From a virus, in IMG/VR virus record IMGVR_UViG_3300025853_000140, positions 1-49,408 of that record: a DNA stretch of 49,408 nucleotides. One strand, written 5' to 3'. This document shows, in pieces, positions 5,248 to 47,907 of the stretch; the stretch's first letter is position 1, and each line of letters opens with the position of its first letter. The notes under the pieces are model-generated. The model saw nothing but the letters and a program-made list of their open reading frames with translations. It was not told the origin of the DNA and searched no databases. The position numbers and the translations under genes are program-made.

Positions 5248-5642
5248 TGTCTTCAAAGTATCACATCCGAAAAGATGGTAAGAAGGTGCGTAAAGGCCTT
5301 TGGTACAACATCAATAAGAAGAAAAAAGCTGGTACATCTAGACCTGGAAAAGGAACTGTGTCTGATGAAGCTATAAAAAGATCACAAGCCAAGTCAGGAG
5401 CTTGGACTCGTAAAGAAGGAAAGAATCCTAGCGGAGGTCTAAATGAGAAAGGTCGTAAGTCTTATGAGCGTGAGAATCCTGGATCAGACCTTAAAGCACC
5501 ACAACCTCAAGGAGGAAAGCGAAGAGATTCCTTCTGTGCACGCATGTGCGGAATGAAAAGAAGCCGAACCGGAGCTGAAGGAAAAAGAGACCCTAATTCA
5601 AGAATTAACAAAGCTCTTAGAGCCTGGAAATGTAATTGCTAA
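5247..5642 (+). CDS. Small basic Cys-containing phage protein, DUF6321-like
   Basis: A 131-residue, strongly basic protein. A Lys/Arg-rich N-terminal half (residues 1-65) is followed by conserved-looking blocks: NPSGGLNEKGRKSYERENPG, SFCARMCGM (about residues 89-97), and a final RINKALRAWKCNC. These blocks match my memory of the phage family DUF6321, found in several marine podovirus and myovirus genomes and of unknown function. Four Cys near the C-terminus could bind a metal or form disulphides. The basic charge and late-operon context suggest a nucleic-acid-contacting or packaged protein, which is inference. The stop overlaps the next start as TAATG. Confidence 0.7.
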   Translation: MSSKYHIRKDGKKVRKGLWYNINKKKKAGTSRPGKGTVSDEAIKRSQAKSGAWTRKEGKNPSGGLNEKGRKSYERENPGSDLKAPQPQGGKRRDSFCARMCGMKRSRTGAEGKRDPNSRINKALRAWKCNC

Positions 5643-27317: not shown

Positions 27318-29491
27318 GAAGAAAAAGAGCACAATTTGGTCAGGTCGTAAGTGGGTACGTAGATCCTACTCCAGAAGGTCTTGATAAAGCGTATGATAGA
27401 CATATGGATAACCTCCTTATGAATGCAGCTATTAGAACAGAAGCTAACCAATTGAATTCTGCTCCTTTTGAAGGAGACAGAGAAGCTCGTAGGCAGCTCT
27501 TGGATAATACTGACAGAGCTCTTACTTCAATAACAGACAGTGCATCTTCTAATTATGGTAACCTGTCTAATATGACAGCTGCTGTCACTAGAGCTTCTGC
27601 TGAGTATCAAAAAGGTTCTCAACCTATAAAGCAGAACTTAGAAAACTATACTGCTTATAAGAGCGAGCTAGATGAGCTGCTAAAAAACAAGAGGATAGAC
27701 GCAGAAGACTACGAAGGTAGTTTAGATCTATCTACGCTCGGATACAATGGATTCTCCTACGACGAAGCAGGTAACGCAATCAATATGTTTGAGGGTGTAA
27801 AAGCTTGGCAAATACCTGACATACAAAATCGTATCCGCCAGGCTTTGCAAGGGCTTAAGCCTGACTCTGTAATAACGTCGAATACTATACTTGGAGGTGA
27901 ACAAGATGGTATGGTTACACTTAAGACTGCCTCAGGCACTACACAAGTAAGTGAAGAGAAAGTAAGAGCAGCTCTTCAGGGAGTCATGAACGATCCTGAG
28001 GTTCTTGGATACTACGGAAGGAAAGGAGAAATTAAAGCGGCTCGTATGGATGAGCCAAACCTTAGACAGGAAATTGCTAGGATGATGGATGATGAGTCTA
28101 AGTCTTCCAATCCTGATCCGGAGAAAGTTGGTAGACTTTCTCAAGCTTTAGAGGCAGGAAATATAGAGGAGATGCGGCAAATTGTTTCAGATGACATTAG
28201 AGACAATATACTTGGGACAATAACTGATGGAGCAGTAGAAGGAAACTCCTTCAGACAAACATCAAACACCACAGACAGATCTTATGATGAGTTGTGGATG
28301 ACAAACTACAAGCAGAAACTTGCAGATGAGTCTTGGAAAATGCGTCAAGATTATGAAGCTGCACAAGCTGCAAAAACTGCAAAGACAACTGAGCCTGTAA
28401 CGCCTAGTCAGCCCGGATTTGTAATCACAGAGGATGGAATAGTATATAGAAGAAGAGGAGGTGAATATGCTGGAGAGCTGCATAATGAAATAACTGCAGT
28501 TGAGGCAGAGCTTGAAGAGCTTCTTACTCTGTACGAAAATCCTCAGAATCAATTATCAGCTGAGGGAAGGGAATCTCTGGAGAGGCAAATAGAAGATAAA
28601 GCTACAGAAGCCAGGATGTTAAACATTACATTCCAAGATTTGTACAAGGACACACCACAAAATTTGCTAGACAATGATTCAGAGTGGGAAGCATTGCAGG
28701 AAGATGAACCATTTTCGTTTACTGGAGTAGGTGCTGCGGGTGGAGTTGGGATTTTACAGACATTGCGCCGTCAAAACAAACAAAAACGGGAAAAAAGAGA
28801 CTTCTTGATGCAAGAAGAATATGCATCACCTGTGGGTGAAAGCACTGTCATATCAACTACATACGTAGATCCTATGAGCCTTGGTTTGACTAAAGCGCAA
28901 GCTGATCAAATGGATGCTTTCTTTGAGGCAGGTATCAAGCCTACTCAAATGGTTTTAGATCCTGTTACAGGCCAAACTATAACATATAAAGAATGGAAGG
29001 CCGGCAAAGATGCAAATGGTGATCGTAGACCTCAAGACCTTGTAGTTAAAGATGTTGCAGTATCTTACTCTGCACCTATAGGAGGTCAACCTACAGTAAG
29101 ACTTTCTATGGCAAATAAAGATGGTCAAAGTGCATCACTTCTTGTTCCTGTAGGAAAAGGAAGTTACTTCGACATCCCTGGACTAAGCCAGTATTATGAT
29201 AATCCAGGAGCTAAACTGGTAAGCGAGTTGCTTACTTATAAGCATGAGGGTCTTACAGACATAGATATGAACGATGGTCTAAAATGGGTGGGAGAATTCA
29301 CAACAAATCCCAGCGATCCAGCTGCTCCAAAAGTTCAGCAAGGCGGCTATATAACTGCTGATCTTACTACATCAGAAGGAGGGACTATAAGCATATACAA
29401 CGCGCAAGGAGAACTTATTAATACTGTAGGCTTGCTTGATCCTAGATTACAGACCTTTGCAAAACTCTACAACATAAAACTTACTATATAA
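27314..29491 (+). CDS. Second cargo-like internal virion protein
   Basis: A 725-residue acidic-to-neutral protein between the 679-residue cargo-like gene and the giant gene. The N-terminal third is helical (AYDRHMDNLLMNAAIRTEANQLNSAP and long coiled-coil-type helices to about residue 125). The centre has alternating charged helices. A predicted linker near 355-375 is Thr/Pro-rich. The C-terminal region (from about 520) contains beta segments such as DPMSLGLTKAQADQMDAFFEAG and VKDVAVSYSAPIGGQPTVRLS. No enzymatic motif was recognised. By synteny it would be a packaged or ejected protein working with the giant protein. It is coupled on both sides (ATGA upstream, TAATG downstream). Confidence 0.58.
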   Translation: MRRKRAQFGQVVSGYVDPTPEGLDKAYDRHMDNLLMNAAIRTEANQLNSAPFEGDREARRQLLDNTDRALTSITDSASSNYGNLSNMTAAVTRASAEYQKGSQPIKQNLENYTAYKSELDELLKNKRIDAEDYEGSLDLSTLGYNGFSYDEAGNAINMFEGVKAWQIPDIQNRIRQALQGLKPDSVITSNTILGGEQDGMVTLKTASGTTQVSEEKVRAALQGVMNDPEVLGYYGRKGEIKAARMDEPNLRQEIARMMDDESKSSNPDPEKVGRLSQALEAGNIEEMRQIVSDDIRDNILGTITDGAVEGNSFRQTSNTTDRSYDELWMTNYKQKLADESWKMRQDYEAAQAAKTAKTTEPVTPSQPGFVITEDGIVYRRRGGEYAGELHNEITAVEAELEELLTLYENPQNQLSAEGRESLERQIEDKATEARMLNITFQDLYKDTPQNLLDNDSEWEALQEDEPFSFTGVGAAGGVGILQTLRRQNKQKREKRDFLMQEEYASPVGESTVISTTYVDPMSLGLTKAQADQMDAFFEAGIKPTQMVLDPVTGQTITYKEWKAGKDANGDRRPQDLVVKDVAVSYSAPIGGQPTVRLSMANKDGQSASLLVPVGKGSYFDIPGLSQYYDNPGAKLVSELLTYKHEGLTDIDMNDGLKWVGEFTTNPSDPAAPKVQQGGYITADLTTSEGGTISIYNAQGELINTVGLLDPRLQTFAKLYNIKLTI

Positions 29492-32400
29492 TGTCTGAAA
29501 AGGTTATAGATCCTTTCACAGGGCTAGAGGTTGTCAAGTCTGGTGTTGTAGACCCTTTCACAGGGCTTAGCTATGACACTGCACCTGTTAAAGATGATAC
29601 TCCTATCATGCCATCATCTACTGAGATGTTTCTTGATGGGGATCCAAATAGTTATCTAAGCTATGGTGTGCCTGTTCTTCCTGGGTTAGACATTGATGAG
29701 ATGCGTGCTCAGCGTCAGTCTCGTGCAGAGAAGTGGGGCAGAGGATTGATGAAAGCTGGTGTTACTACCGCAATGGCTTTTACTGAAAACACTCTTGGAG
29801 CGCTCAACGGTATAGGTGAAGCTATTTATTACAGGGACTGGACAAAGCTTGCAGACAATACTACAGGTAGAGCAGTAGACAGCGTTAACGCTTGGATGCA
29901 AGACAACTTTAGAAACTATTACACCAAAGAAGAACAGGAAGCGATAGGACTTGAGAATCTTGGATACGCAAACTTCTGGGGAGATAAAGCTGCTAACGGT
30001 CTTGGGTATGCTGTAGCTAGTGTAGCAAGTCTATATGCTACTGGTGGAGTAGGAATAGTTACTAGAGGATTAGGATTGGCTGCAAAAGGAGCTAAGGCTG
30101 CTGTAGGTGCTGCAGCTGCTACAAAGGCCGGGAGTAGAGCAGCTGGTATTTATAGAGCTTCTAAAGCTATTGCTACTGCTGAAAAGCTGTACAAAACTGC
30201 TTCAAGTTCAGCTAAAGTTAGGAGGGGTATAAGTGCTGCTAAGCAAGCTGAGGTAGGTATAAGTATGTCTCATGCAGAAGCTGCAGTAGAAGCCAGAGAA
30301 GCACTGAAGCACGCAGAAGAAACAATGCTAGATCAGATAGCTGCGGAGAAAGGAGTTGACCGTATGCAGCTGAGTCAGAGCGATAGAGAAAGAGCTAGAG
30401 AAGAAGCCAGCAAGATTGGTAATGCTGTGTATGCTTCTAACATGGCGGTACTTGCACCTACAAATCTTGCCATGTTTGGGGGGCTGTTTAAATCTAAATT
30501 CAAAGCATCAAGATCTAGTCTTAGTGGCTTTACTAAAGATGCAAAGTCTAAGCAGTGGTTGGACATGTGGTCTGCTGACAATGCAAAAGCTTGGCAAAGA
30601 ACTGCTTCTAGGTATTTGCAGAATCCTGCAAAAGACGCAGTTACTGAGGCTTTTCAGGAAGGAACCCAATTTGCAATTGGACAGGCTGCGGGCGCCGCTG
30701 CAGAAGGTGAAGGCTATAGCAGTGTTCTTGATTGGTTAGGTGCTATAGGTGAGGGAGGTAACGAGATACTCAAAGGAGATAAAGAAGGTATCGAATCCGT
30801 TCTGCTTGGTGCTATTATCGGGGGATTCATGGGTGGTGTTCAATCCGGGATATCTCGTTATGGAAAAACAGAGGAAGATGCTCAGCGTAAAAAAGTACTG
30901 GATAGACTCAACAGCCCTACCCTATATAAGGTTGTGGATAACGCTGAGTTTGCTAAGAACCAGGAGACTATTCTAAAAAAGATGCAAGACTCATTGGAGT
31001 CTGGGGATCACAAAGGTTACAGAGATGCTCAGCTAGAGCTGATCCAAGAGAACGTTCTTTTCCATGAACGCAATGGTAGCATAGACATGTTCATGGAAAG
31101 AATAGATGATGCTAAGTATATGGAGAAAGAGGAGTTTGCAAAGGCTTTTGGGCTTCCTGAGAACTCTGACTTTGACCATAAACAGATAGTTTCTGATCTA
31201 ACGCAGGACGTTAAAAACCTAGTCCAGATAAAAAGAGAGCTTGATGCTATTGCTCCAGGTCAAGAAACAACTGGTCTTCCTAGGCTACTTACATCTAAGG
31301 ATGTACTTGAAGAGGAAAAGGACAGACTAACTGAAGAGTACCATATGAAAGACTTCCTTGTCAGGAATAAGAGCAGATTGCTTGATGCTGACGGAAGGAT
31401 ATCTAAGATGCGTGCTGAGCTTATGGATCTGTTCAATCCTTTGAGCAAGGAAGAAAGAGCAGTTGCAGAGAGAACTATTAAGAGGCTTACGTACAACTCT
31501 AGTAAAATTCGTAGACTCCAGAAGAAAGAAAGGGAGCAAGGACTTTCCGAGGGGGAGAAGGAACAGCTAGCTTCTTTGCTTGCAGAAGTAGACCGTAATG
31601 AAGCTGCACTAGAGGCGGAAGAAGTAACCGATGATCAATTAGGAGCAGACAAGCAGAGCTATAAAGAAAGGCTTATAAAGCCCAAGGAAGAGAGGGAGGA
31701 TAAAGTAGAGCCGCTTTCTCCTGAACTTAGAGAAGCTCTTAATAATATAACTAAGAGTATATCAGATCCTTCTGACAGGCTAAAGGCAGAAGAACTAGCT
31801 AGGGATATATCTAGACTGGCAGGAGACAGAACGCAAGCAGCGTATGCACTGAACGAACTTCTTAGCAATCCGGAAAGAAGAGCGGGTTACATAAGAAGGC
31901 AGATGAAAACTAAAGAAGAGGCTGCTCAGAAGGAAATTGATAAGTACGCTGATAATTCTATTGCTAGCACTACAACTTCTGCAGAGCTCTACGATCTTGG
32001 GATACTAGCTAAAGATAAAGGCGTATCTCCTGCTGCTCGAAAGAAGCTAAACGACGAGTACAAGAGGAGGCAAGAAAACGAAGAGGTTGTAGCTGTAAGA
32101 CTAAACCTTGAAGACCTACCTGTTCTTAAGAAGAAAAAACAAGAACTTGAGGCTAAGAAAGAGAAGGAGGAACTTACACCTGAAGAGAAAATAGAACTAT
32201 TTGTACTAGATACTATAATACCTAGTAGAGAAGCTCTAGGAGAGCAAGGTATAGAAGGCAATAGAAGTAGGCAGAAAAAGGCTCAGGAAGCAGCTAGGAA
32301 GAAAGCGGAGGAGGAAGCAGCGGCAAGGGCTGCTGCGGATGCAAAAAAAGAAGCAGACAAAGCCAATCAAACTAACGACTCTTCTACAAACAACACTACT

Positions 32401-35400
32401 AATCCAGATAATGATGGGTCAAGAAATCCTAGATCCCCATCACCATTTCAAAGTGAACTGTACATCGTAAATGGTGAGTTCCAACTTAAAGACATAACCA
32501 CTGATAAGAACGGTAATACCATAAGACGTAAAGCGGTTGTCTTTAAAAATGGTGAGCCAGTACCGGGTACTGATGTTGATCCTGCACATCCAAGAACGAT
32601 AGATAGAGGCTTCTTAAAGACAGAGGAGGGGTACAAGGAAGTCATGGAAAAGGGCGTGGAGTTTGAACACGTTCGCAGCACTAAGGACAATAAGAACCTA
32701 GAGTATATATATGTAAAGCTTGCGGGCACAAATACATACTTGGGCTTCCTTCCCAATCCTATGAGCCAAGGTTCTAAAACTAGTAACCTGCTTATGGAAC
32801 TTATTGCTGGTAATAAGGTAACAGCTAAAGTAAACACCATAGAGTATGCTGGAAAAGGCAACTTCCTTGCTGAGACTAATGATCAAGGAGAGCCTGTCTT
32901 TAAGCCTGTCTCTGAGGTACTAGGTGAAGACGTTCCTCCTAGTTTTGTAGGGTTAGGTATTGTACAAAAAGACAATATCACTGTAATAGCTCAGAACAAG
33001 TCTGATCAGGAAATAAACGAAGCTCAGGAGAATCTCAATTTGAGAAGAGATTCAATGGAACTTACTGCAGGACAAGTTGTTATGGTAGTAAAGCTCCCTA
33101 ACGGAGATTACACTGCTCTTACTACTAGTACTAAAACTCTAGGTGAAGAGGGCTACGGAAGACTTGTAGATATAATTGCCAAGAAAGGTGAGGGCAATAC
33201 CGTGTCTGAGATTAAGGCTCTTCTTGGTATACCTAATAACTGGATACAAGGTAAGACTTCATTCTTTGTAACACAGCTTAAGAACTCAGGAAAAGTAATA
33301 TTCAATTTTGAGCATAAAGGTGCAATCATAGGCATGTCTTATGATGAAGTATCTGGTATGCTTGAAAGTGGGGCACCTAAGTTTTTCAGCTATGGTAAGA
33401 TGGTTGAAGAAACAACTGATGAGGGTGATGTTGTAACTGTATTTGAGAGAGAAAAGCCTAAGAAGGAAGGGGGCAATGCGTCAACTGCTGAATATCAGAG
33501 ACTTAAGGAGGGGATGCTAGAGTCTTTCAAAGCTGCTGCTATGAACTCAAGAGTTCAGGTTAGCAAAAAGGCACTGCAAGAACTAGAGGGGGCGTATACA
33601 GATCCTGTAACAGGAAAGACTTATGCTTCCTACCAAGAATTTGCTATTAAGGAACTGCTTACTACAAGTAATAGGTTTCACAAAGGGCTTCCAACGTACG
33701 ACCACAGAGTTTCTATGTCTGTTAATGTGCAGGAAGGAGCTAATACTTCGGAGACTACCGGTAGCAGCGGCAGGGTAAAACCCGAAAACACCGAAGGTAA
33801 AAAGAAGAATACCACTAAGAAAAGAAAAGGTGGAGCTGGAACAAAGCACAACTTCGGAGAGCCTACCAACACAGAACCTACTAGTAACGAAACAAAATTT
33901 AATCCTAGTAATGCTGTAGCTCTGACTCCTGAAGAGGAAGCAGAACTTATGGCTTCTATAACAGGTGAGGGGACTACTGCAGAACCACCAAGCAAAGATG
34001 ACACCAGTGGTGCCGACCGGCAAACTCGAGATCATCGGCTACGGCAAGAGCGTGAGGCAGTGTTACAGCAAAGTGACACTATTCCGGAGGGTGATTACAT
34101 CAAGGGTAAGACAGGAGAGAAGACCAAGGATGTACTCACGCGCTATGTCAGAGGTTATCTGGAAGAGGTACTTACACTAGACATCAAAACAGCTAGTTAT
34201 GATGCTATGTCGAAGAATTTAGTTTTGACTTTGCAGCCGGGGGACACAGAACTGGAAGTGCGCGTGCCCATGCATGGTATGGTCTTGGGCGGTTCCGTAA
34301 TATTAGACGTTGACACCAAGCAGGTAATCAATGCATATTTTGATGCAATTGAAAAGGCTGGAGGAGCCGACGTTGCTGGTATAGTAAGTGAAGAAGAAGC
34401 TCGGCAACTAGAGGAGGGCATAAAGAATGCTTATGAACTTCTAAATGAAGCAATAGAAGTTGCAGACTATGAGGGTATCAAGTATCAAAAAGAATATATA
34501 GAAGCTGCCAAGGCTAAATGGCAAAAGCTTTTTAATACTCCTTATGATGAGTATGTCAAGTCTAACACAAGTAGACAAAGTTTAGCTGGAGAGACTGACG
34601 CAGCGTTTGCAGCTGAGGAAGCCGGAATGGGTGCCGTTGAAGATGCCTTCGTAGATGGATTCCAGCCAGATGAAGAAGCTGGTGTACCTTTTGTATGGGA
34701 AGGAAATGAGTTTAGAATCTTTACTGCAGACGAGATTGAAATTGTATCAGCTACTAAAGAGTTTGTAGCAGATCAAGGCAAGCTCGGTGTGGATATATAC
34801 AATGGTCGTAGCTTCTCTTTTGCATCGTCATTTAAAACCTTTCCTCAAGGTCTTAAAGACGAGATAAAGAGAATAGGAGACCAGAACGCAAGCGATGTTA
34901 GCGATGTTCCTTTTAGTCTTAAGGATTCTACTACAGGAGAAGTAAGTATTGACACTTTCTTCTTTGTAAGCGGGCTACACCCAAATGGGGAAGTTGGGTA
35001 CGCCGTTGCCAACTATGATTCATCAAAATTAAGTGAAGACAATCGTAGGTTCCTAGCACAATATTTGACTACTGAGACGAATATACCTGATGGTAAGAAT
35101 ATGGCGGTTAAGCAACTAAGGGAAAATATGCACGCCGTATACATAGCAAATGAAATTCCATTTGCAGAGTTGATGAAAGCCCCTAATGGAGGCGTAAGGA
35201 CTGGTAGAGGTGGAAGAATGGGTGTAACATTCCTTATGAAATCCAGTCCTACACCGGAGACATTAGATGCTTTAAAGAAAAGAGCTGATCTTCTGTTTAC
35301 CAGGTCTATAGAAAACATAAACAACAAACAATACGTCGAAGACCTTCGTATTAAGGTAAACGGAAAAATACAGGTAGGACCTCCTAGCTATAGCCTTAAG

Positions 35401-38400: not shown

Positions 38401-41400
38401 AAACGTTCGCATTTGTCTGGTACCCCTGGTAGACAGTTCTTCACTTTGAGCATGAATATGGATGGTACAGACTATGGTATGCTAGATGAGTTCCGAGAGA
38501 TAACTATAGCAGATAATATATCCAACATGGAGGAGGAAAATCCGGAAGCTTACAAGAGACTGCGCGACGCAATAGCAGCGCAAAGCACTGAGGAAGCTGC
38601 AGATATATTCATGCAGGGTTATAAAAAGTCTAACGGTACCGACGCTCAGGGTATGATAACTATTCATTTCCACAGGCGTTTGGGACAGGGTCTTGGTTTG
38701 TGGACTGCAGTAGATGAGCAGGTATACAAAGAGTACATGTCTAAACCCAAGGGGCAAAGAATTTGGGACGGGGAGAGATCACCTATCAGACCTTGGAAAA
38801 CCTCTTATGACTTTAGAGTTCTCGAAGAGTTTGGAGGATACAATCACCTTATGGCTGTATCTCATAAGAACTCTTACGTTGTAATGACAGATGAGCTAGT
38901 TGAGGGTGTACCTCAGATGAAAAAGCTCAATGATTGGATGGAATCCAATAACGTACATGTTGCTAACAGTGTGGAAGCTAAGAAGCTGGGATCGTTCAGA
39001 GCGGTCACTGCTGCTAATCTGGAAGAAGCTAGAATACAAACTTTGCCTTCAAGGGGGTTGAAAGTTCCTCAGATTCTACCAGAAAAGAATACGCAGAAAA
39101 CCACCTTTGGTAGACAGCCCCGTAAAAATATGATTGCTAACATCAATCCTACGGAGACTTACTACCTGCGAGATTCCAACAAGCTTGTAACAGGTAGAGA
39201 GCTTATTGATATCTACCAGAAAGCTGTTGTTGCTAAGCTCAACCAAGGGCATGACAAGGTTGTACAAGACTTGGGGTACGATGAGGTGATGAATGCTACT
39301 ACTGAAGCTGAGCAAGTAGCAGCACTTAATAAAATGATACCCAAGCTTAGAGAGCTTCTTACTGAGATAGGTGTTGAAAAAGATCTGCCTCAGAATATAA
39401 TGGATGCTCTGGATGTAGTGGCTGATGAGAATGGGGTCGTTACAACTTTGTTGCCAGCGTCTTTCCCCAGCATACAGCTTAAGCTTGACTCAATAGTTAT
39501 GAACCTGTTCCGTAAGAACGCCTATCTGATGAAGATGACAGGTGTGGAAATGGTTCAGTTTGGTGAGTACGGAGGACATGAAAAAGATGGGACTCTGAAG
39601 TTCTATGATATAGATAATTCCTCAGGTACAGACGTTGTAGTAGGAGCAGAAGTGGACATACGATATGATGTGCTTCAGGACTTAGGGATAGACCCAGAAG
39701 ATCCTAACGTTGATATTGATGCAGCTCTTAATAGACTACTTGGCTATCGTGTTCCTCAGCAAGGTAAGTCTTCTACTCTTATGATGAGGGTTAGGAAGAT
39801 ATTACCTAAGTCTCACCCAGCTGCTGTTAAAGTTCCTCCTGGTGTTACTACCATGATGGGTTCTGACTTCGACGTTGACAAGATGTTCGTCATCTTCCCA
39901 GAGCTTGAGGTTCAAGAATCTAACCAAAAAGTAAAAGTAACTAAGGTCAGACCTGACTATAACAAACTTACGGGTGCATCTCAGGAAGACTTTAATTCTC
40001 TGGATTCTAAGGTGATAAACAATATCATCTTTGACACCTTCGAAGCAATTGGTGGGAACATTAATCACATCCATGAGACTCTTGCTCCTTTGGACTTACC
40101 TGCGGAGCATGACCCAGTAGCTCTTGGACTTCTGAGTATTAGATTCGATCAGCAGACTTTGGATTCTATGACTGTGGCTGAGAAAAGAGCCGAATCTAAA
40201 GTAAAGATTGACATCAATAGTACTTCTGGACGTATTCGAAGTAGTGCGGACAACCAATTGTCAGCTGCACTGCGTGGTATTTATGCTAACGCCATCGCAG
40301 GTCGTAACGTAGCTATTGCTGCTCAGGAAATGAGTGGTGGTCAGCTCTCATGGAAGCCTGATGAATCCGAGTACTTTGAAGTAGATGGTGTTAGAGTAGG
40401 AGAGCTTACTGAAAAAGCTAAGTTCCAAGACTCTATGGGAGTGTTTAGGTTTACAGACTACTACATGTCAAACTACCTGAGCAAAGCTGTTGACTCTGTT
40501 AAGAACCCAATACAAGGACTGATTAACGACAACAGAATAACTGCAGCTCTGACAACCTACATGTTGTCAATAGGCATGACTCCAGAACAGGCTATACTGT
40601 TCTTGAACGTACCAGTTATTAGGAACAAAGTACAAGAGGCACTTTCTAAAGGTCTTAGCTTGAAGCAGGTAGTTAAGATAGGGGCAACTAGAAAAGATCC
40701 TGTGAAGCCTGTTCCTATGAAGCTTTCATCTGAAGAAATGAAAGAGATCATACATTCGGATAAGCCTTACGGAGAAAAAAATTATCTAGACATGCTGATG
40801 TTTATGTCTCAGCAAAGCACTAAGCTAGATACTTTGTACAAACTTCTTAGTCCAGATAAGATTGATAAAATTGGAGGAACAACACAAGCTCACTTGGCAC
40901 TAATAGATGCTGCATCTAACCAAGATGCTGAAGTCTTTGGGGGTCTAGAATCTCTAAAGATGGTAACTGAAGGAGATGCATACCCTATAGTTAGAGCTAT
41001 GTATGCAGCAATGGAGCGCAGCTTGGATGTAACTACAGCTCTAGGATTTATATCAAGACAGCCTTCAGTGCAGAAGTTTAAGAAGGACATTAAAAAGATA
41101 ACCAATAAGGAAGTCTTCAATGCTAACACGCACAGAGACATAAACAAAGCAATACTGCATCATCTAGTGACTAAGCCTGGGTCGCCTCTCTTTGAGAAAG
41201 GACATTTAGATGTGGAGTTTATCTTTCCCACCTTTGTTAGAGGTGATGTAGCTAAGCTTTTAAAAGCTATGCAAGATATTACAGGAGGTACTTCCAACCC
41301 TGTAGTAGATGCTTTTAGTATAGCTGAAGAACCTATGCCTAATGGTCAAAAGTTTACTTACCTGCAGGTAGACAAAACACAACTTTCTACCAAAGAGCAG

Positions 41401-44400
41401 AAGGATCAGTTCACCATGACTCTCCAAGGTATGATTGATGACCTTGGTTTGTACGGTGAGGAAAACATTCCTTTCGTTAGAATGTTTGTCAAAACTGTTA
41501 TAACAAACAGTATACTTACTACAGGCTTTTCTCCTGGTTTGAAGAGTTACTTTGAGCTTATACCCGTTGGATATTTATCTGACTTGGGTGTAAGGGAGCA
41601 TCTTAATCAGGAGATGCTCAAGCTGGGAACTGATGAGAATGCTCTTGAGGATTTTAAAGCAGAGTTCTTATCTAGCTATGGGACTCATTATTTCAGAGGT
41701 GGTGGTGGAGGATACCTGTTTAATAGATCTAAACTAGCAGGTAATATAGGAAGTGTTGAACAATCCCCTGGAGATTCAGAGTGGGTTATTAAAACAAAAG
41801 GCAAGCACAAGTTCCTTTACAAAAGGATAAATCAAGGAGACACTAACTATGGAAGTAACATGTCTACGTATGGACCTGTTATTACTAAGGGTAAGCAACA
41901 TGTCTTCTACGAAGCTAACCTGAGATTTAAAGGCGAAAAGTATAATAGAAGCTTGTTCCAAGCTGAAGATCAGATACTTGAGCCACCGTCTAGAGCATAC
42001 ACAAGTGTGTTCCGTACTACGGATACTCAGCAAAGTAGAAACCTGGATAGCTTTGGGTTTGTTCGTGACACACCTCGAGGGGCTAGAGAGAAAATAGCAA
42101 GACTTAGAACTTCTTTTGCTAAAGCCGGAGTCACAGTAAGTGTTGTTGAAGCTTCTCTTCCTTTAGGAGTGAAGGGTGAGGTTAGAAATGGAGTAGTCTA
42201 CGTAGACCCTGCCCAGATTACTGAGGACACTACGTATCATGAGTTTGGGCACATACTTATAGATATGCTCCCACAGGATCAGGTTGATAGGTACATTGAG
42301 GAAGTCAAAAAATCTGACCCAGGATTAGCTGAAATAGTTGCTGCATCTTACCCAGAGCTGGAAGGCCGTGATCTTGGAAAGGAGATACTGGTAACAGCTA
42401 TAGGTATACAAGGCGCTAAAATTGAGAGGAAGAATCCTAGTAAACTGCAGATACTGATTAACAGGATACTGCGTGCTATCGGCAAGCTGTTTGGGATTAA
42501 GCCAAGTATTGCAGCTGTTCTTGCAGAAGAAATGTTTGCCGGAGATATCAAAAGAGAGTTGTCTGGAGAGTTCAACCCTAGTGTACAGAAATCTAAAAGG
42601 CTACAGAACAAACTTAATAAGGTATACAATCAAGTTAGAGATAGCTTGGAGAGGCAACGTATAAGACTCAAAGGCTTGCCAGAGAGTAAGTCTAAGGACG
42701 GGAAGATGCGAGACGTCAGCGCTCTTATAAACAACATCGATCAGATGAAAGAGAAGCTGGATTCAAATACTGCAGATCTAAACGAGTTTTTTGACTTCCA
42801 TCAATACGTTGTAGGCAGAGTTACCATCCTAGAAAATATGATGGATGATATCAGATCTACGGAAAATGAATCTGTAGACCTTGATACTATGTACGACAGG
42901 CTCAATAAAATTGAGGAGCTTCGTAAGACTTTGGAGAGTTTGTACAACGAAGAGGAGAGCTCTTCCACAGTCACTCTTGTAAAAGATCTTCTATCTACTA
43001 TGCGTCAGGAGGGTCTGCTGGATCAATTCCCAGATGAAACTAGAGACCTACTAGTTGATCTAGACTCTAGTCTTACTAGGCTTAGAGAGCTCAATGAGGA
43101 CTACTACAAGGACATTCTCCCGATGACTACTAAGACATTGTTGCAATATGCTAGCCCAGAGGCAGCAGCAGCAATTGAACAGGAGAAAAGCAGAGTTGAA
43201 GAAAGTGGGGATCTGTCAGGATTTAGGCCGTTTACTCTTATAGAAAGAAAAACAGGTCGGTACGGCAATAAGATGCCTGAGTTCATACAGCTTAACAATG
43301 AGTACTTCTCTGATGAAAGTACTATGACTAGAGAAGAGTTTGATGAAGAAGCTATGAAGCTGAAGCTCAAGTATTTAGATAGCAAGCTTGTAGGTAAAGC
43401 TCAGCTAGATACAGAGCTCACAGAAGCAATGAGATCTAAAAGCTACTTCTCTTATATGCTTGATCCTATTGTATATTCTAGACAGCAGAATCTGCAACTG
43501 TTTGCACTTGCATTGAAGGATGCATTGAATAAAGCTAACGATGAATCTCTTGACTTCATATATAATATGGAGGACAAGTTTGAGAAGTTCAAGGAGTGGA
43601 AAGGGGGCTCAGAACTAAATGCAGCTAATCTTTATGAGGATCTTCTAACCAATATTAAAATTCGAGTAGGAGACAAAACTATAAATGCTCTTAGCTTAGT
43701 ACAGCAGTTCAACGTAGATGATTACTATGGTAAGTATTATAATTACATAGATGCTATATCTAAGAAGTATAACAAACCTGCTTATGACTCAGATCCTGAG
43801 TTAAAAGAGGAGTGGTTCAAAAGTGAAGAGGCACTACTCTATAATCAAGCCAAGCTAAAATGGTTTAGAGACAATACTGAGCCTGTAGAAAAAGCTGCTG
43901 AAAAGTACAAGGCTGCCCTGAAGGAAGCTAATGCTCTGGAGGACAGGATGAAAATGCTTAGTAAAGAAGATAACCCTGCTAATAGAGAGCAAATACTTCT
44001 CCTACAAGCGGACTATTACAAGGCACAGAATAGACTTAAGAAGATGGGCAAGTTCGACCAAGAGTCTGGGCGTATGGTGTATATGGGTGAACTTGCTAAG
44101 CCGAACAAAAGCTATGAGAGTGACAAGTGGAAGAAGATACAGGCCACTCCTGAGATGAAAGAGTTCTATGATTACATAGTATCTAACTACGCTAGATCCC
44201 AAAAGATTATAGGGGAAAGTGGTCTCAGAGTCAATAGTTGGGATGAGTTCTCATATGTGATGCCATCTGTTCGTAAGGATGGTTTGGGCACACTTGTGGA
44301 AGATGGATGGAAAGAGTTTAAGAATGAGATAGGAAGAGATTTCCGTAGACTTGACACAGATACAGAGTTTGGTATGATGACCTCTAATGACGGTCAAGAA

Positions 44401-46038
44401 ATACGAGGTATACCTAAGTACTATACTAACCCTGTTGATGAAAAAAATATCTCCAGAGACGTTGCTGCTAGTATGTCTCAGTTTGTACATATGGCAAACA
44501 CATACAAGGAAAAGTCTAAAATAGCTGGTCTGGTTGCTAGCATGCTTGCATTGCATGAACGCAAGGGAGTTATTAAATATCAGAGTGGTGTTCCAGTTAT
44601 GGACCAGGTGGCTAATATTGCCAGAAAAGCTGCAGAGCATGTTACTAAGAGAGGCTCTGAGGACAACTTAGATCTTAAGCACCTTAAGGATTTTGTTGAC
44701 TCTGTATTCTATGGAGTTGTAGATGTTCCAGACATAAGTGCAGATGCTCAAAAAACTATGAGCAAAATAATAGGTTTTACGGCTGTTGTAGGATTGGCGG
44801 GTAACGTATTGCAGATAGGTAACCAGGCTATTCTTGATAATAACATGACAGCTCGGGAAGCTTTTACTAAGCAGTTCTTTAAACCTGACGTTTACGCAGA
44901 TGCTGTTAAAACCTACTTGTTTGAGCAAGGTTTAGCTCTTCAAGACGTGGGTGCATTCAGACCTAAGGGGAAGCTAGCTAGAGCACTGCAAAGTTTCGAC
45001 GGACTGGTAGATGTGGAAAACGTATTTGCTAATGTGGGATCTAACAAAGTAAAGAAGCTGATAAACAAAAAGAATCTTTACTTCGCACAGGGTGGAGTAG
45101 AGCATCAAACTGCTTCAGTTCGTATGTTGGCTGTATTGAAGTCTACTGTTGCTAAAGACAAAGACGGCAACGTTATCATGAAAGATGGTAAGGAAGCCAA
45201 CATATGGGATATGCTCATAGAAAGTGAATCCGGTAGGCTTGTCATAGATCCTAAAGTAGCTAACGTAACCAAGTCACAGTTAATAGCTCGTATACACGGA
45301 CTAAGCAAAAGAACTAACCAAGTAAAAGGTAGCTTTGACCGAGCTATGGCTCAGCGTACTGCAACAGGTAAGTTCTTGCTTCTGTTCCGCAACTACCTTA
45401 TACCAGGCCTACGTGCAAGATTTGGTCATGGTGATATGCTCCAAGTAGATCATGAGCTAGGAGCAATAACTAGAGGTAGCTACAAGACAGGATTCGATTT
45501 CTTGAGATCCATGATCGAAAATAAATTGAATTACACCAAGGTAATGAGTATGATGAGTGAGATAGACAAGCAGAACATGCGTAGAAATCTTTACGATGTG
45601 ATGACAGTTACTCTCACTATGATGATGTATAACCTCCTAAAAGGAATAGCGGATGACGATGATGAAAATTACCTTGCAGCGTTTGGTGCCTACCAAGCTA
45701 GGAGATTGTATACAGAAACTACTGCATTCCTAAATCCAATGGAAGGTGTGAGAATGCTTATGAGGCCTGTAGCATCTGTGAATTTGGTGGAGGACGCATT
45801 TATGCTAGCTTATACTGGATTTAGGACTGCTCAGTATGAAATAGGTGCTTACTCTGATGAGGAAGAAATACTCAAGGATATACAGTACCAAAGAAGATCA
45901 GGAGCAAATCAGAAAGGAGACTCGAAGTTCATAGGAAGAATGAAGAAGGTGTTCCCGTTCCTTAGAACATGGGATACAGTTCCATGGGTTGATGGCTCTC
46001 CGGAAAGAGTTATGGCCAAGCTTAAGTTCTTCGAATAA
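29491..46038 (+). CDS. Giant virion protein: virion RNA polymerase region plus two HExxH protease-type motifs
   Basis: A single open frame of 5515 residues. Parts seen in order are: a duplicated DPFTGL motif (5-26); hydrophobic Gly/Ala-rich stretches near 167-212 and 435-455; coiled coils to about 925; low-complexity linkers near 927-984 and 1421-1475; a zincin-type motif HEGYH at 2034-2038 with a downstream ExxxD at 2091-2095; an RNA polymerase-like core with KVPQILPEK...TFGRQPRK at 3191-3212, YRVPQQG at 3419-3425 and GSDFDVDKM ending at 3465 (D3459, D3461, D3463); a second zincin-type motif HEFGH at 4250-4254; more coiled coil; and hydrophobic helices near 5090-5117 and 5370-5386. The DxDxD element in this setting parallels the catalytic motif of the crAss-like virion polymerase family (phage phi14:2 gp66 in the literature). 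A role in ejection and early transcription is inferred. Other domains are unassigned. Confidence 0.82.
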   Translation: MSEKVIDPFTGLEVVKSGVVDPFTGLSYDTAPVKDDTPIMPSSTEMFLDGDPNSYLSYGVPVLPGLDIDEMRAQRQSRAEKWGRGLMKAGVTTAMAFTENTLGALNGIGEAIYYRDWTKLADNTTGRAVDSVNAWMQDNFRNYYTKEEQEAIGLENLGYANFWGDKAANGLGYAVASVASLYATGGVGIVTRGLGLAAKGAKAAVGAAAATKAGSRAAGIYRASKAIATAEKLYKTASSSAKVRRGISAAKQAEVGISMSHAEAAVEAREALKHAEETMLDQIAAEKGVDRMQLSQSDRERAREEASKIGNAVYASNMAVLAPTNLAMFGGLFKSKFKASRSSLSGFTKDAKSKQWLDMWSADNAKAWQRTASRYLQNPAKDAVTEAFQEGTQFAIGQAAGAAAEGEGYSSVLDWLGAIGEGGNEILKGDKEGIESVLLGAIIGGFMGGVQSGISRYGKTEEDAQRKKVLDRLNSPTLYKVVDNAEFAKNQETILKKMQDSLESGDHKGYRDAQLELIQENVLFHERNGSIDMFMERIDDAKYMEKEEFAKAFGLPENSDFDHKQIVSDLTQDVKNLVQIKRELDAIAPGQETTGLPRLLTSKDVLEEEKDRLTEEYHMKDFLVRNKSRLLDADGRISKMRAELMDLFNPLSKEERAVAERTIKRLTYNSSKIRRLQKKEREQGLSEGEKEQLASLLAEVDRNEAALEAEEVTDDQLGADKQSYKERLIKPKEEREDKVEPLSPELREALNNITKSISDPSDRLKAEELARDISRLAGDRTQAAYALNELLSNPERRAGYIRRQMKTKEEAAQKEIDKYADNSIASTTTSAELYDLGILAKDKGVSPAARKKLNDEYKRRQENEEVVAVRLNLEDLPVLKKKKQELEAKKEKEELTPEEKIELFVLDTIIPSREALGEQGIEGNRSRQKKAQEAARKKAEEEAAARAAADAKKEADKANQTNDSSTNNTTNPDNDGSRNPRSPSPFQSELYIVNGEFQLKDITTDKNGNTIRRKAVVFKNGEPVPGTDVDPAHPRTIDRGFLKTEEGYKEVMEKGVEFEHVRSTKDNKNLEYIYVKLAGTNTYLGFLPNPMSQGSKTSNLLMELIAGNKVTAKVNTIEYAGKGNFLAETNDQGEPVFKPVSEVLGEDVPPSFVGLGIVQKDNITVIAQNKSDQEINEAQENLNLRRDSMELTAGQVVMVVKLPNGDYTALTTSTKTLGEEGYGRLVDIIAKKGEGNTVSEIKALLGIPNNWIQGKTSFFVTQLKNSGKVIFNFEHKGAIIGMSYDEVSGMLESGAPKFFSYGKMVEETTDEGDVVTVFEREKPKKEGGNASTAEYQRLKEGMLESFKAAAMNSRVQVSKKALQELEGAYTDPVTGKTYASYQEFAIKELLTTSNRFHKGLPTYDHRVSMSVNVQEGANTSETTGSSGRVKPENTEGKKKNTTKKRKGGAGTKHNFGEPTNTEPTSNETKFNPSNAVALTPEEEAELMASITGEGTTAEPPSKDDTSGADRQTRDHRLRQEREAVLQQSDTIPEGDYIKGKTGEKTKDVLTRYVRGYLEEVLTLDIKTASYDAMSKNLVLTLQPGDTELEVRVPMHGMVLGGSVILDVDTKQVINAYFDAIEKAGGADVAGIVSEEEARQLEEGIKNAYELLNEAIEVADYEGIKYQKEYIEAAKAKWQKLFNTPYDEYVKSNTSRQSLAGETDAAFAAEEAGMGAVEDAFVDGFQPDEEAGVPFVWEGNEFRIFTADEIEIVSATKEFVADQGKLGVDIYNGRSFSFASSFKTFPQGLKDEIKRIGDQNASDVSDVPFSLKDSTTGEVSIDTFFFVSGLHPNGEVGYAVANYDSSKLSEDNRRFLAQYLTTETNIPDGKNMAVKQLRENMHAVYIANEIPFAELMKAPNGGVRTGRGGRMGVTFLMKSSPTPETLDALKKRADLLFTRSIENINNKQYVEDLRIKVNGKIQVGPPSYSLKSPSTPKRGKMEQTQAVSWLRARFGKDSVSIYTNMKKVGSAVVHGYMENAAVHLWSNAEVGTEYHEGYHLFFRTLLNDKQREAIYLDALAEFGEPTAEDIEKAKRGQLNITNKEARLLALEEKMADAFRDYVLSQKAPKSFGQRLVKFFKDLYAYIKAFAGKPVAMRQAFRLIESNRIPASYSRTAQAFSPGAAFMMKQYAADPQTFRELRDIAIYKALNEVSASGANMQDLLGSPETANVKGGDSTIRNWFLRSAFHKDSPDIMTGGRTREPISDREFGALQRAYDDPQQFQAVLSDYNIKLGAPEFTHDGEVMPSQMIGEEAADNAQLFLEVYEHWHDKRGELGGVNVRGFRTDIRDRLRDYGFKIYDSEQARERGEVNDKEEGADRNYSVSYAQTDPAAALGDKARRVLSRIPVKSTSESYFGFETYMPIEDIYHEIQTAVVGSESYVDMMEKLKSRSSNISSLTAVYDFIQNLSTPEKALLYSVFSQAMTPYKMIVVESSSSSQPGKPRKVVKIIDSSSKSIERYFTAKWAEQATSVAGIYKVSVSEDGDILDIQANQARLGKALKHYKNIVDLKGTGDRSYEELADMLLALGINIAKDRETAARRVKEALQMEGISVSNFIKRPNTNLKDIMENPNKLGKLGKANYPNIFQTESTTMATISKVIMSKFEAPVAASFFNGLGNLIFPINLKNDMNITSEMVKDVSSEGLQAIMEGEEGSKGTVGSYIRGKDRQGNEVVYNSLAHMMISTKAGKESFEIVDIDSKREGDERAVEYDNFDYNEGLSVDLIMFGSSKDKKYIAIDTQGDRSKLSYMAIDNILNSSVRSSTGFQVLGDNPLEAAIERTYLLDLHRIRVAEKTIESTPDKDLIAGYHDGRYKALQFGGEYRDTTNIAHDAYLHMEMGKPMTKELKKAVKEYVAEVVNRMETTYLEEILKEVGGEERLRLLVANSVQPGNGYVVGKEIEFVKDYIKMNVVGRVISRELLRNGVHFTSGGANYNKRSHLSGTPGRQFFTLSMNMDGTDYGMLDEFREITIADNISNMEEENPEAYKRLRDAIAAQSTEEAADIFMQGYKKSNGTDAQGMITIHFHRRLGQGLGLWTAVDEQVYKEYMSKPKGQRIWDGERSPIRPWKTSYDFRVLEEFGGYNHLMAVSHKNSYVVMTDELVEGVPQMKKLNDWMESNNVHVANSVEAKKLGSFRAVTAANLEEARIQTLPSRGLKVPQILPEKNTQKTTFGRQPRKNMIANINPTETYYLRDSNKLVTGRELIDIYQKAVVAKLNQGHDKVVQDLGYDEVMNATTEAEQVAALNKMIPKLRELLTEIGVEKDLPQNIMDALDVVADENGVVTTLLPASFPSIQLKLDSIVMNLFRKNAYLMKMTGVEMVQFGEYGGHEKDGTLKFYDIDNSSGTDVVVGAEVDIRYDVLQDLGIDPEDPNVDIDAALNRLLGYRVPQQGKSSTLMMRVRKILPKSHPAAVKVPPGVTTMMGSDFDVDKMFVIFPELEVQESNQKVKVTKVRPDYNKLTGASQEDFNSLDSKVINNIIFDTFEAIGGNINHIHETLAPLDLPAEHDPVALGLLSIRFDQQTLDSMTVAEKRAESKVKIDINSTSGRIRSSADNQLSAALRGIYANAIAGRNVAIAAQEMSGGQLSWKPDESEYFEVDGVRVGELTEKAKFQDSMGVFRFTDYYMSNYLSKAVDSVKNPIQGLINDNRITAALTTYMLSIGMTPEQAILFLNVPVIRNKVQEALSKGLSLKQVVKIGATRKDPVKPVPMKLSSEEMKEIIHSDKPYGEKNYLDMLMFMSQQSTKLDTLYKLLSPDKIDKIGGTTQAHLALIDAASNQDAEVFGGLESLKMVTEGDAYPIVRAMYAAMERSLDVTTALGFISRQPSVQKFKKDIKKITNKEVFNANTHRDINKAILHHLVTKPGSPLFEKGHLDVEFIFPTFVRGDVAKLLKAMQDITGGTSNPVVDAFSIAEEPMPNGQKFTYLQVDKTQLSTKEQKDQFTMTLQGMIDDLGLYGEENIPFVRMFVKTVITNSILTTGFSPGLKSYFELIPVGYLSDLGVREHLNQEMLKLGTDENALEDFKAEFLSSYGTHYFRGGGGGYLFNRSKLAGNIGSVEQSPGDSEWVIKTKGKHKFLYKRINQGDTNYGSNMSTYGPVITKGKQHVFYEANLRFKGEKYNRSLFQAEDQILEPPSRAYTSVFRTTDTQQSRNLDSFGFVRDTPRGAREKIARLRTSFAKAGVTVSVVEASLPLGVKGEVRNGVVYVDPAQITEDTTYHEFGHILIDMLPQDQVDRYIEEVKKSDPGLAEIVAASYPELEGRDLGKEILVTAIGIQGAKIERKNPSKLQILINRILRAIGKLFGIKPSIAAVLAEEMFAGDIKRELSGEFNPSVQKSKRLQNKLNKVYNQVRDSLERQRIRLKGLPESKSKDGKMRDVSALINNIDQMKEKLDSNTADLNEFFDFHQYVVGRVTILENMMDDIRSTENESVDLDTMYDRLNKIEELRKTLESLYNEEESSSTVTLVKDLLSTMRQEGLLDQFPDETRDLLVDLDSSLTRLRELNEDYYKDILPMTTKTLLQYASPEAAAAIEQEKSRVEESGDLSGFRPFTLIERKTGRYGNKMPEFIQLNNEYFSDESTMTREEFDEEAMKLKLKYLDSKLVGKAQLDTELTEAMRSKSYFSYMLDPIVYSRQQNLQLFALALKDALNKANDESLDFIYNMEDKFEKFKEWKGGSELNAANLYEDLLTNIKIRVGDKTINALSLVQQFNVDDYYGKYYNYIDAISKKYNKPAYDSDPELKEEWFKSEEALLYNQAKLKWFRDNTEPVEKAAEKYKAALKEANALEDRMKMLSKEDNPANREQILLLQADYYKAQNRLKKMGKFDQESGRMVYMGELAKPNKSYESDKWKKIQATPEMKEFYDYIVSNYARSQKIIGESGLRVNSWDEFSYVMPSVRKDGLGTLVEDGWKEFKNEIGRDFRRLDTDTEFGMMTSNDGQEIRGIPKYYTNPVDEKNISRDVAASMSQFVHMANTYKEKSKIAGLVASMLALHERKGVIKYQSGVPVMDQVANIARKAAEHVTKRGSEDNLDLKHLKDFVDSVFYGVVDVPDISADAQKTMSKIIGFTAVVGLAGNVLQIGNQAILDNNMTAREAFTKQFFKPDVYADAVKTYLFEQGLALQDVGAFRPKGKLARALQSFDGLVDVENVFANVGSNKVKKLINKKNLYFAQGGVEHQTASVRMLAVLKSTVAKDKDGNVIMKDGKEANIWDMLIESESGRLVIDPKVANVTKSQLIARIHGLSKRTNQVKGSFDRAMAQRTATGKFLLLFRNYLIPGLRARFGHGDMLQVDHELGAITRGSYKTGFDFLRSMIENKLNYTKVMSMMSEIDKQNMRRNLYDVMTVTLTMMMYNLLKGIADDDDENYLAAFGAYQARRLYTETTAFLNPMEGVRMLMRPVASVNLVEDAFMLAYTGFRTAQYEIGAYSDEEEILKDIQYQRRSGANQKGDSKFIGRMKKVFPFLRTWDTVPWVDGSPERVMAKLKFFE
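29503..29568 (+). repeat. Duplicated (V/I)DPFTGL motif at the N-terminus of the giant protein
   Basis: Residues 5-12 and 19-26 both read V-x-D-P-F-T-G-L with a period of 14 residues. The DNA copies are also nearly identical around CCTTTCACAGGGCT. A short duplicated motif right at the N-terminus of a packaged protein could be a packaging or docking tag, which is inference. Confidence 0.7.
32269..32442 (+). other. Low-complexity linker inside the giant protein
   Basis: Residues about 927-984 run from a Lys/Glu/Ala-rich helix (KKAQEAARKKAEEEAAARAA) into an Asn/Thr/Ser/Pro-rich stretch (TNDSSTNNTTNPDNDG). It separates the N-terminal helical and hydrophobic region from the next folded region and is a likely inter-domain boundary or cleavage region. 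Confidence 0.6.
35590..35775 (+). other. First zincin-type protease motif (HEGYH ... ExxxD) in the giant protein
   Basis: The motif H2034-E2035-G-Y-H2038 follows a GTEY segment, and E2091-K-M-A-D2095 lies about 53 residues later. HExxH plus downstream ExxxD is the gluzincin-type zinc-ligand arrangement: two His and a Glu bind Zn, and the Glu of HExxH is the general base. I recall similar TEYHE-type segments in other crAss-like giant proteins. Peptidase activity and target are not known. Confidence 0.65.
39061..39885 (+). other. RNA polymerase double-psi beta-barrel signature region in the giant protein
   Basis: The region begins with K3191 (KVPQILPEK, then TFGRQPRK at 3205-3212), which resembles the lysine-bearing first barrel. 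It continues to YRVPQQGKSS at 3419-3428 and GSDFDVDKM (3457-3465). The order RxP...Gln/Gly...hydrophobic strand...DFDxD mirrors the beta-prime RxPxLH...NADFDGD arrangement of cellular polymerases, with three Asp (3459, 3461, 3463) as Mg ligands. The assignment is by motif comparison only. Confidence 0.72.
42238..42384 (+). other. Second zincin-type protease motif (HEFGH) in the giant protein
   Basis: H4250-E4251-F-G-H4254 lies in the segment EDTTYHEFGHILIDML, with a possible third ligand E4298 in GKEILVTA. This is C-terminal to the polymerase signature, so the two HExxH motifs bracket it. Whether both are active peptidases cannot be told from sequence. Confidence 0.62.
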
Positions 46039-47134: not shown

Positions 47135-47907
47135 AATATTGGTTTACTGGGAGAATAGAACTCTTGATTGAATACCTCGAGATCGAAACTAGGCTTGCTG
47201 TGCAGCTCTGCATCTGCAGGTAGCGTTACATCAAGCTGTCTCTCAATATGAGATCTTAATCCAGGGTCCTTAAAGAGAATCTTCCCAGTGTGTCCGTCGA
47301 AGTCAAAGCCATGAAACTCCAATATTCTCAGCTTCCAATCATCATCTATCTCAGAAAATCTTCCATCTACAAATGCTGCATATGAAGACTTAGCTTCCTC
47401 CGGAACATCGAACACAAATAATACATGATACGGATCAGGGTCGATACGTATCTTAAAATTCCTGAACGAACACAAAGCAGATTCGAACTTAGTAAACAAG
47501 GGATCGCCTGAAAACCGATATAGTAATGCAACACATTCAGGGTATTCAGGGGTACCCATGAACGCATTGACAAACAGTGAATGCCACAGCATCAGCTTTC
47601 TATTCCCACCCATCATCGGGAGAAGGAATATGCTCGAATCTGTGAGTCTATCCACTGACAAGTCATAGCACACTACTTGGTTGCGCTCACCAGTGCACGG
47701 TGTGATCACGTTGATGCGATAGGGGGACTTGGGTCTAGCCCTAATAGTCCCCCCTATCTTAATCTCAAACGTACAATCGTCGAGCTTGCAATCAATTCCT
47801 ATGATTACATCTTGAATCTTCTTTGTTTCACACTTAGAGAGATTCCCAGTCAGACGTACAGTTCTCCCATTGATAGGGGTGAATTGTAGGTCCGGACATC
47901 TCACCAT
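47131..47907 (-). CDS. Hypothetical phage protein between glycosylase and exonuclease
   Basis: A 258-residue mixed alpha/beta protein that I do not recognise. The first ~95 residues are beta-rich with several Cys (C4, C26, C40, C45, C71, C80) and end in FLLPMMGG. The centre has KLMLWHSLFVNAFMGTPEYP, and later come KIRIDPDPYHVLFVFDVP and FHGFDFDGHTGKILF. DPDPYH resembles the UNG loop only superficially and has no Gln in the right place. It overlaps the exonuclease gene by seven bases upstream and the glycosylase by ATGA downstream, so it is co-expressed with DNA repair and replication enzymes. A role in nucleic-acid metabolism is guilt by association. Confidence 0.6.
   Translation of the reverse strand: MVRCPDLQFTPINGRTVRLTGNLSKCETKKIQDVIIGIDCKLDDCTFEIKIGGTIRARPKSPYRINVITPCTGERNQVVCYDLSVDRLTDSSIFLLPMMGGNRKLMLWHSLFVNAFMGTPEYPECVALLYRFSGDPLFTKFESALCSFRNFKIRIDPDPYHVLFVFDVPEEAKSSYAAFVDGRFSEIDDDWKLRILEFHGFDFDGHTGKILFKDPGLRSHIERQLDVTLPADAELHSKPSFDLEVFNQEFYSPSKPIL

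Follow-up and report, generated by a model that had tools for sequence, protein, structure and literature searches.

For crAss-like as for N4-like phages, it is still to be explained how a protein of more than 600 kDa gets out of a capsid by way of a narrow tail and turns into an active polymerase in the host. The question is raised by one gene in IMG/VR virus record IMGVR_UViG_3300025853_000140, which we analysed over its whole stretch of 49,408 nucleotides (the window). Positions 29491–46038 of the plus strand form one ATG-to-stop frame of 5515 residues (the giant), with a computed mass of 616.4 kDa. The original prediction, made from the letters alone, had described this single polypeptide as a virion RNA polymerase (RNAP) with two zinc-protease motifs, and both the unbroken frame and the motifs were borne out: HEGYH starts at residue 2034, DFDVDK at 3459 and HEFGH at 4250. 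The best explanation as a whole, which homology and predicted structures make quite probable, is that the transcription and ejection complex of crAss-phage virions is here encoded as one chain. Its parts are as follows.

29491–46038, plus strand: giant virion-RNAP protein with modules A-Z1-B-Z2-C, 5515 residues (open reading frame (ORF) calling and domain profiles)
29689–30501, plus strand: AN, the conserved N-terminal domain of module A, residues 67–337 (homology to the N-termini of crAss001 gp47 and of phi14:2 and phi17:2 virion proteins)
32209–34131, plus strand: span of the low-order linkers of module A, residues 907–998, 1408–1489 and 1491–1547 (low order; 25–32% identity to IMG/VR record G003 over residues 1501–1950)
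35437–35907, plus strand: Z1, zincin-like domain near the A/B junction, residues 1983–2139, with HEGYH at 2034–2038 and a Glu pair (EE) at 2090–2091 (profiles and alignment)
38578–40770, plus strand: B core, two-barrel RNA polymerase, residues 3030–3760, with DFDVDK at 3459–3464 (phmmer, alignment, AlphaFold model and structure matches)
42088–42525, plus strand: Z2, zincin-like domain near the B/C junction, residues 4200–4345, with HEFGH at 4250–4254 and Glu 4298 (profiles, alignment and model)
44113–45915, plus strand: C1-C2, conserved and mainly helical module, residues 4875–5475 (homology to phi14:2 gp65 and crAss001 gp49)

A phmmer search of residues 1801–4000 against the PDB returned a single match, the phi14:2 virion RNAP (6VR4; E 2.3e-16). 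With the polymerase region as query, tblastn matched 99 phage records, 40 of them listed; blastn with 2 kb of the polymerase core found no match among phages. An alignment of 14 relatives, window included, has ten invariant columns (G80, L98, R149, P151, S157, G186, D188, D190, D192 and K193), and the D[FY]DxDK block is conserved across it. The AlphaFold2 model of residues 3030–3760, built from 58 alignment rows, reached a predicted local distance difference test (pLDDT) of 86.9 and a predicted TM-score (pTM) of 0.87. Its only Foldseek match at or below 0.001 was again 6vr4 (E 9.1e-25, TMq 0.71), which VIA-align superposed over 613 residues with a Z score of 27.2 and a root mean square deviation of 2.9. 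Other polymerases followed at a distance (QDE-1, Z 15.6; plant RDR2, up to 14.7; phage P32 gp64, 11.6), and the barrels of cellular largest subunits reached Z of about 8.8 at most, over model residues of about 317–677. One chain of the giant thus holds both double-psi barrels, with DxDxD in the second, in the middle of the protein where the original prediction had expected a polymerase core. These comparisons confirm the modelled core as a crAss-type two-barrel virion RNAP of the phi14:2 gp66 family, with packaging in the virion expected by analogy. PHROGs and Pfam searches with three overlapping pieces of the giant found no polymerase or peptidase family, only phrog_32390 (unknown function, N-terminal piece) and one Pfam match below cutoff. 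The motifs are nevertheless not chance occurrences, given the conservation of D[FY]DxDK in aligned relatives, the match to 6VR4 and the location of both HExxH motifs inside conserved domains.

The regions on either side of the polymerase match proteins that relatives encode separately. In a phmmer comparison of the whole giant with the large ORFs of named phages, it was colinear with three proteins from three separate genes. Those of cr128_1 matched residues 50–456 and 1967–2125 (gp47 type), 3048–3477 and 3554–3715 (RNAP, crAss001 gp50 type) and 4872–5438 (gp49 type). In crAss001, gp47, gp49 and gp50 were detected in virions by mass spectrometry (PMC10172136; this and the other papers cited here are represented by the part of their text that was available). 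A model of the 1200 residues of Z2-C had an overall pLDDT of 79.9 and matched phi14:2 gp65 in BFVD by Foldseek (E 1.3e-31, TMq 0.60), followed by crAss 'RNA-polymerase subunit' proteins and, weakly, polyvalent proteins. Against the PDB, Foldseek and VIA gave helical-bundle look-alikes among the 50 matches listed for this model, with no zincin and no N4 part among them. Homology and predicted structure together show putative crAss-type virion cargo proteins of the gp47 (A), gp50 (B) and gp49 (C) types on one chain, and the gp67- and gp65-type partners of the gp66-type RNAP are present here within the polymerase's own chain.

Modules A and C also occur apart from the polymerase. Leptolyngbya phage Lbo-JY46 (L033, PP438436) and phi17:2 (L034, NC_021798) keep the N-terminal domain of A and C; the polymerase profile found no B in the whole records of either phage and found it in all four of the other records searched. 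This indicates that A and C also do a job of their own, for which virion packing and ejection are the likeliest candidates.

A frame of this length could be the product of a mis-assembly or of a lost-stop error that fused separate genes. Near-identity of the 5515-residue frame in the 89-kb IMG/VR record G001 bears on this, as does record G003; G001 may derive from the same or a related sample as the window, which makes G003 the independent control. The latter has a frame of 5346 residues with HEGFH, DFDIDK and HEFAH in the window's order, and is 54% identical to the window over the 1000-residue piece searched. Identity per 150-residue block was 39–65%, but only 25–32% across residues 1501–1950, which lie between A and Z1 and take in the end of a low-order region (1408–1547). 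We also ran profiles grown from the window over the window itself, 19 loci of named phage records and 83 IMG/VR loci, 80 of which are the best 80 of 447 confirmed relatives, a sample weighted towards the window's kin. The polymerase frame was closed at both ends in 62 of these best 80 loci and measured 5331–5714 residues from stop to stop in seven, one of which (L036) is the window's own virus. The other six carry such a frame independently of the window's record, five of them with no in-frame stop before AN. In the remaining one (L065), an in-frame stop at 683–685 parts AN, in a 227-residue ORF, from a rest of 5496 residues; this stop may mark a genuine gene break, be recoded or be an error. 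With L065 set aside, everything lies in one frame in 6 of the 62 closed loci. An erroneous join would be easy to make, as AB and C are two genes a few bases apart in Suoliviridae records and the ORFs of B and C lie −4 to 29 bases apart in 61 of 78 pairs, a spacing that a small change would bridge. The same short spacing makes genuine fusion a small step. Both the G003 frame and the other fused loci refute the artefact, which we regard as hardly credible.

Both HExxH motifs of the giant lie within conserved domains with a downstream Glu. Z1 typically reads GTxYHE[AG][FY]H...EExxAExFR; of 50 distinct domains, 43 keep its HExxH, 6 have lost it and 1 has a gap there. H62, E63, H66, E118 and E119 are invariant in 39 rows selected from these 50 by dropping the 6 motif-less rows and 5 others, two of which (L101 and L109) lack the first Glu. 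The HExxH of Z2 is intact in 28 of 59 domains, most others reading PEExxH or EExxH, and H61, E62, H65 and E109 are invariant in 24 of the 28 intact rows. Compared with each other, the Z1 and Z2 profiles matched at 97.4% (E 1.2e-11 for that single comparison), and they therefore look like two copies of one domain placed around the polymerase. The Z2 part of the model consists of a helix (16–32), three strands, a helix with HEFGH (68–80) and a helix with the Glu (114–135), at a pLDDT of about 58–84; a zincin core is described as an N-terminal helix, three strands, the HExxH helix and a Glu helix (PMC5512222). Profile searches of the PDB with Z2 and with Z2-C gave nothing convincing. With Pfam, Z1 members had scattered weak matches, of which one alone carries the name of a peptidase (Tox-MPTase4, 2 of 39 members, best E 0.0035), and 1 of 38 Z2-C members matched PhageMetallopep. 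A zincin-like assignment is likely, not proved by fold, and peptidase activity is predicted. The records of cr110_1 and cr11_1 are the only ones examined whose annotation mentions a zincin in this gene block ('putative RNAP associated protein fused to zincin protease').

Near the place of Z2, some relatives have an HExxH of different look: LILHEIMHD in phi14:2 gp65 (L012:4998–9263), TLLHEVIHT in Fpv1 gp33 (L014:29369–42574) and ILHEIVHA in cr53_1 (L016:21821–22399). These are closer in look to TLIHELVHA of N4, as if another zincin type had replaced Z2 in the three.

Across the survey, the domain order A-Z1-B-Z2-C recurs, not all domains being detected everywhere, and the gene breaks vary. They separate A from Z1-B and this from Z2-C (L040, L046 and L048, for example), A-Z1 from B and B from Z2-C (crAss001 and Dulem virus 41), A-Z1-B from C (for example L062 and L067), A from Z1-B-Z2-C (L042), or A-Z1-B-Z2 from C (L102 and L107), and in other loci there is no break at all. 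Gene boundaries consequently occur on either side of each zincin-like domain. L049 is likewise fused, at 4630 residues, with no Z1 match. In a tree of 83 polymerase cores (near-copies left out, short search, arbitrary root), the window and G003 fell into a six-row clade in which all rows are B-C fused, and L056, L060, L063, L064, L065 and L068 formed another, each clade with a support of 100. Being fused at both A-B and B-C requires at least four changes on well-supported branches, under a label that is set by length or by AN match and hence crude: it calls crAss001 'Z1-B' though its Z1 is on gp47, and counts L065 as fused despite the in-frame stop after AN. On this tree, three-way fusion occurs in two separate clades.

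The second of these clades bears on what the zincins do. B and C are fused in all six of its members; A and B share one frame in four, L065 having the stop and L063 being cut off by its contig. The AN profile had no match in L056, L060, L064 and L068; the AN of L065 (profile E 8.8e-30) matched their N-termini at E 1.6e-32 or better, and A is therefore present there. Both HExxH motifs are gone throughout the clade, replaced by WEA[FM]R (YWEA[FM]RR) in Z1 and PEExxH in Z2, which makes the domains paired pseudo-proteases. The fused window, G003 and L039 retain both protease motifs, and phages with split genes often keep intact zincins.

These patterns decide how far the giant can be read as a self-processing polyprotein, an idea that the original prediction had floated. 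Z1 and Z2 would then cleave the chain at its A/B and B/C junctions, either while it is in the capsid or once it has been ejected, and yield the separate proteins of relatives. Such a role would suit two mutually similar zincin-like domains placed near both junctions, each flanked by the gene breaks of relatives on either side, and autoprocessing by zincins in giant injected proteins has been proposed by Iyer et al. 2017 (PMC5512222). However, the clade without either HExxH is still B-C fused in six of six rows. Among the loci with a detected Z2, 7 have the Z2 motif and 6 have lost it when B and C share its ORF; when C is there without B, 20 have the motif and 20 have lost it. These counts drop 10 near-copies or repeats and take L056 and L060, with two rows each, once, while some near-copies, such as L057/L058, remain; the B-C fused cr110_1, cr11_1, cr271_1 and ctcc615 are omitted, as they have no Z2 match. 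An intact Z1 shares its ORF with B but no visible A in 16 rows, of which some are truncated at the locus edge, and with A only in 2 rows. The N4 virion RNAP (vRNAP), zincin included, is stated to be packaged unprocessed (PMC5512222). As loss and retention of HExxH do not follow gene fusion, the polyprotein is left unsupported, and we consider it improbable. A variant in which the zincin pairs are ancestral junction devices has, in our judgement, a similarly poor chance of being right: they would still release A, B and C from the ejected chain inside the host in the window's clade and would have been replaced by gene splitting elsewhere, while one clade lost the motifs and became a permanently linked polymerase of more than 5,500 residues, and N4 would have reached its layout independently.

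Somewhat different is the idea that the zincins are delivered together with the polymerase as effectors directed at the host or its envelope, much as 'polyvalent proteins' are conceived. Zincin effectors within injected proteins have been proposed (PMC5512222), and an intact Z1 in 43 of 50 domains over several gene layouts would fit; against this, no target is known, and the loss of both motifs in one clade and of Z2's in 31 of 59 domains means that the function is dispensable there. We treat this as possible, though not as what we expect. Most likely, the chain of the one-chain complex works uncut or cut only locally, and the zincins are most likely accessory proteases acting on virion or host proteins around ejection, not scissors that separate A, B and C. 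Several results weigh against this account. Sequence-profile matches to PDB zincins were weak, the best being Zmp1/PPEP at E 0.017, and structure searches of the PDB with the Z2-C model had no zincin among the matches listed. The window's own zincins may still be processing enzymes even though one fused clade has lost HExxH. The hydrophobic segments of the giant are marginal, with Kyte-Doolittle means over 19 residues that nowhere exceed 1.5; the highest are 1.50 (436–454), 1.44 (5093–5111), 1.38 (4326–4344) and 1.36 (172–190). A search for strong membrane helices found none, and the membrane-active-looking N-terminal stretches and C-terminal hydrophobic helices proposed originally are weaker than described.

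By analogy with relatives, the 616-kDa chain would be packed in the capsid near the portal and would exit through the tail ahead of the DNA, from N to C terminus and at least partly unfolded. A and C may help chain and DNA to cross the envelope, after which B would refold and transcribe early genes from the incoming DNA. All parts would be delivered in fixed order and at 1:1:1 on one chain. For crAss001, a published model has cargo ejected before the DNA with partial unfolding (PMC10172136).

Among known systems, phi14:2 (Steigviridae) is close in content. Its gp66 (6VR4) is a two-barrel single-chain RNAP with DFDxDK, reportedly packaged in the virion and transcribing early genes. The giant had been singled out as more than twice the size of gp66, which is true in size; gp66 is, however, only the middle of three neighbouring genes in the order gp67-gp66-gp65, whose 1797 + 2180 + 1421 = 5398 residues are the joined equivalent of the 5515 in the giant. 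The differences are that phi14:2 uses three genes, that the Z1 profile found nothing in gp67, and that among the three proteins only gp65 has an HExxH (residue 245), where the Z2 profile had no match. In crAss001 (also Steigviridae), each module has a homologue, and Z1 with HEAFH lies near the C-terminal end of gp47, but three genes are again used, gp47 is on the opposite strand and Z2 lacks the first His (PEEFAH). The Suoliviridae cr1_1, cr4_1, cr53_1 and cr114_1 share a structural gene, two genes of cargo size, an AB giant, C and an exonuclease on the other strand; they differ in encoding AB (4272–4645 residues) and C (1584–2007 residues) as two genes, and the AN profile did not find the N-terminal domain of A in them. 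Flavobacterium phage Fpv1 has a giant virion structural protein with an RNAP core (gp33, 4401 residues) and C2 in gp34. It is far diverged, with two genes, the active site DYDIDK and no match to the Z1, Z2 or AN profiles.

N4 gp50, the Schitoviridae vRNAP, is likewise a giant ejected virion RNAP, with an HExxH domain directly after the polymerase and then a large helical C-terminal part (PMC12633501), but its polymerase is of T7 type and its length 3500 residues. A profile of the N4 zincin (7 sequences) matched the 59-row Z2 profile at 86–93% and Z1 at 73–87%, but a 38-row slice of Z2 at only 33–63%, with controls at 0.3–0.9%. A shared origin of the helical C module with the C-terminal part of N4 was also considered and was not found (profile similarity 0.1%). 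As the polymerase is two-barrel and not a T7-type single-subunit enzyme, the giant is predicted to work like N4 gp50 but is not a member of the N4-like vRNAP family. Thermus phage P23-45 also has a two-barrel RNAP fused into a giant virion protein (5002 residues); there the RNAP is N-terminal and fused to the tape measure protein of a long-tailed phage (PMC10770324).

Parts of this picture have precedents. RNAP genes of up to about 6000 residues are reported in crAss-like phages (PMC10136315), and three-way fusions may well be among them. Also described are multidomain proteins of large size in the crAss transcription block (PMC7886860), the fusion of vRNAPs to large proteins, both in crAss-like phages and in N4 phages (PMC10770324), and a zincin adjoining the N4 vRNAP polymerase (PMC5512222, PMC12633501). 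A literature search that covered few subscription papers found no paired zincins at both junctions, no sliding gene breaks and no fused clade with both motifs lost. It gave no paper linking crAss-like phages or crAssphage with a zincin and, for crAss with polyprotein, nothing relevant among the matches listed. As far as searched, the paired junctional zincins, the sliding gene breaks and the fused clade with dead zincins are new here. With the whole complex in a single chain, its parts have a set order and a one-to-one ratio. Among the relatives, nature supplies the comparisons: fused chains occur with zincins intact or with the motifs lost, and split genes occur with zincins intact. What the zincins do can thus be tested on expressed pieces, and the virus need not be cultured beforehand.

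The genes around the giant are as follows.

18922–25278: 2118-residue protein matching the Fpv1 virion structural protein gp30 and proteins of cr127_1 and Lbo-JY46 (sequence E 3.3e-37, first stretch 7–371)
25278–27317, plus strand: 679-residue gene with a weak local match to crAss001 gp45, cargo protein C1 (sequence E 3.5e-10; first listed stretch residues 451–487)
27314–29491, plus strand: 725-residue gene, its stop overlapping the ATG of the giant, in the position of a cargo or ejection protein gene (position only)
47901–48662, minus strand: exonuclease, downstream of the giant (PHROG 107, E 4.8e-52)
48664–49368, minus strand: weak RIIB-like match, downstream of the giant (PHROG 609, E 1e-6)

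The 2118-residue gene, the 679- and 725-residue genes and then the giant follow each other as in Suoliviridae records and Fpv1, where two genes of similar size also precede the giant. No TerL match lies within the window itself. The TerL of the near-identical G001 has its best matches, about 37–43% identical, in uncultured crAss phages, and the four relatives whose taxonomy was checked (cr114_1, cr1_1, cr4_1 and cr53_1; 39–41% identity) are Suoliviridae. By this TerL, the virus is classed as of Crassvirales type. The major capsid protein of Fpv1, as the sole query, matched G001 at 27% (E 4.8e-37); Fpv1 is not filed in Crassvirales. The host given for Lbo-JY46 is a cyanobacterium and so lies outside the Bacteroidetes, the hosts normally cited for crAss-like phages. 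The giant genes of cr53_1 (L016), cr4_1 (L032) and cr114_1 (L035), annotated as intact coding sequences, are split among several ORFs when read with table 11, as a reassigned stop codon in these phages would lead one to expect.

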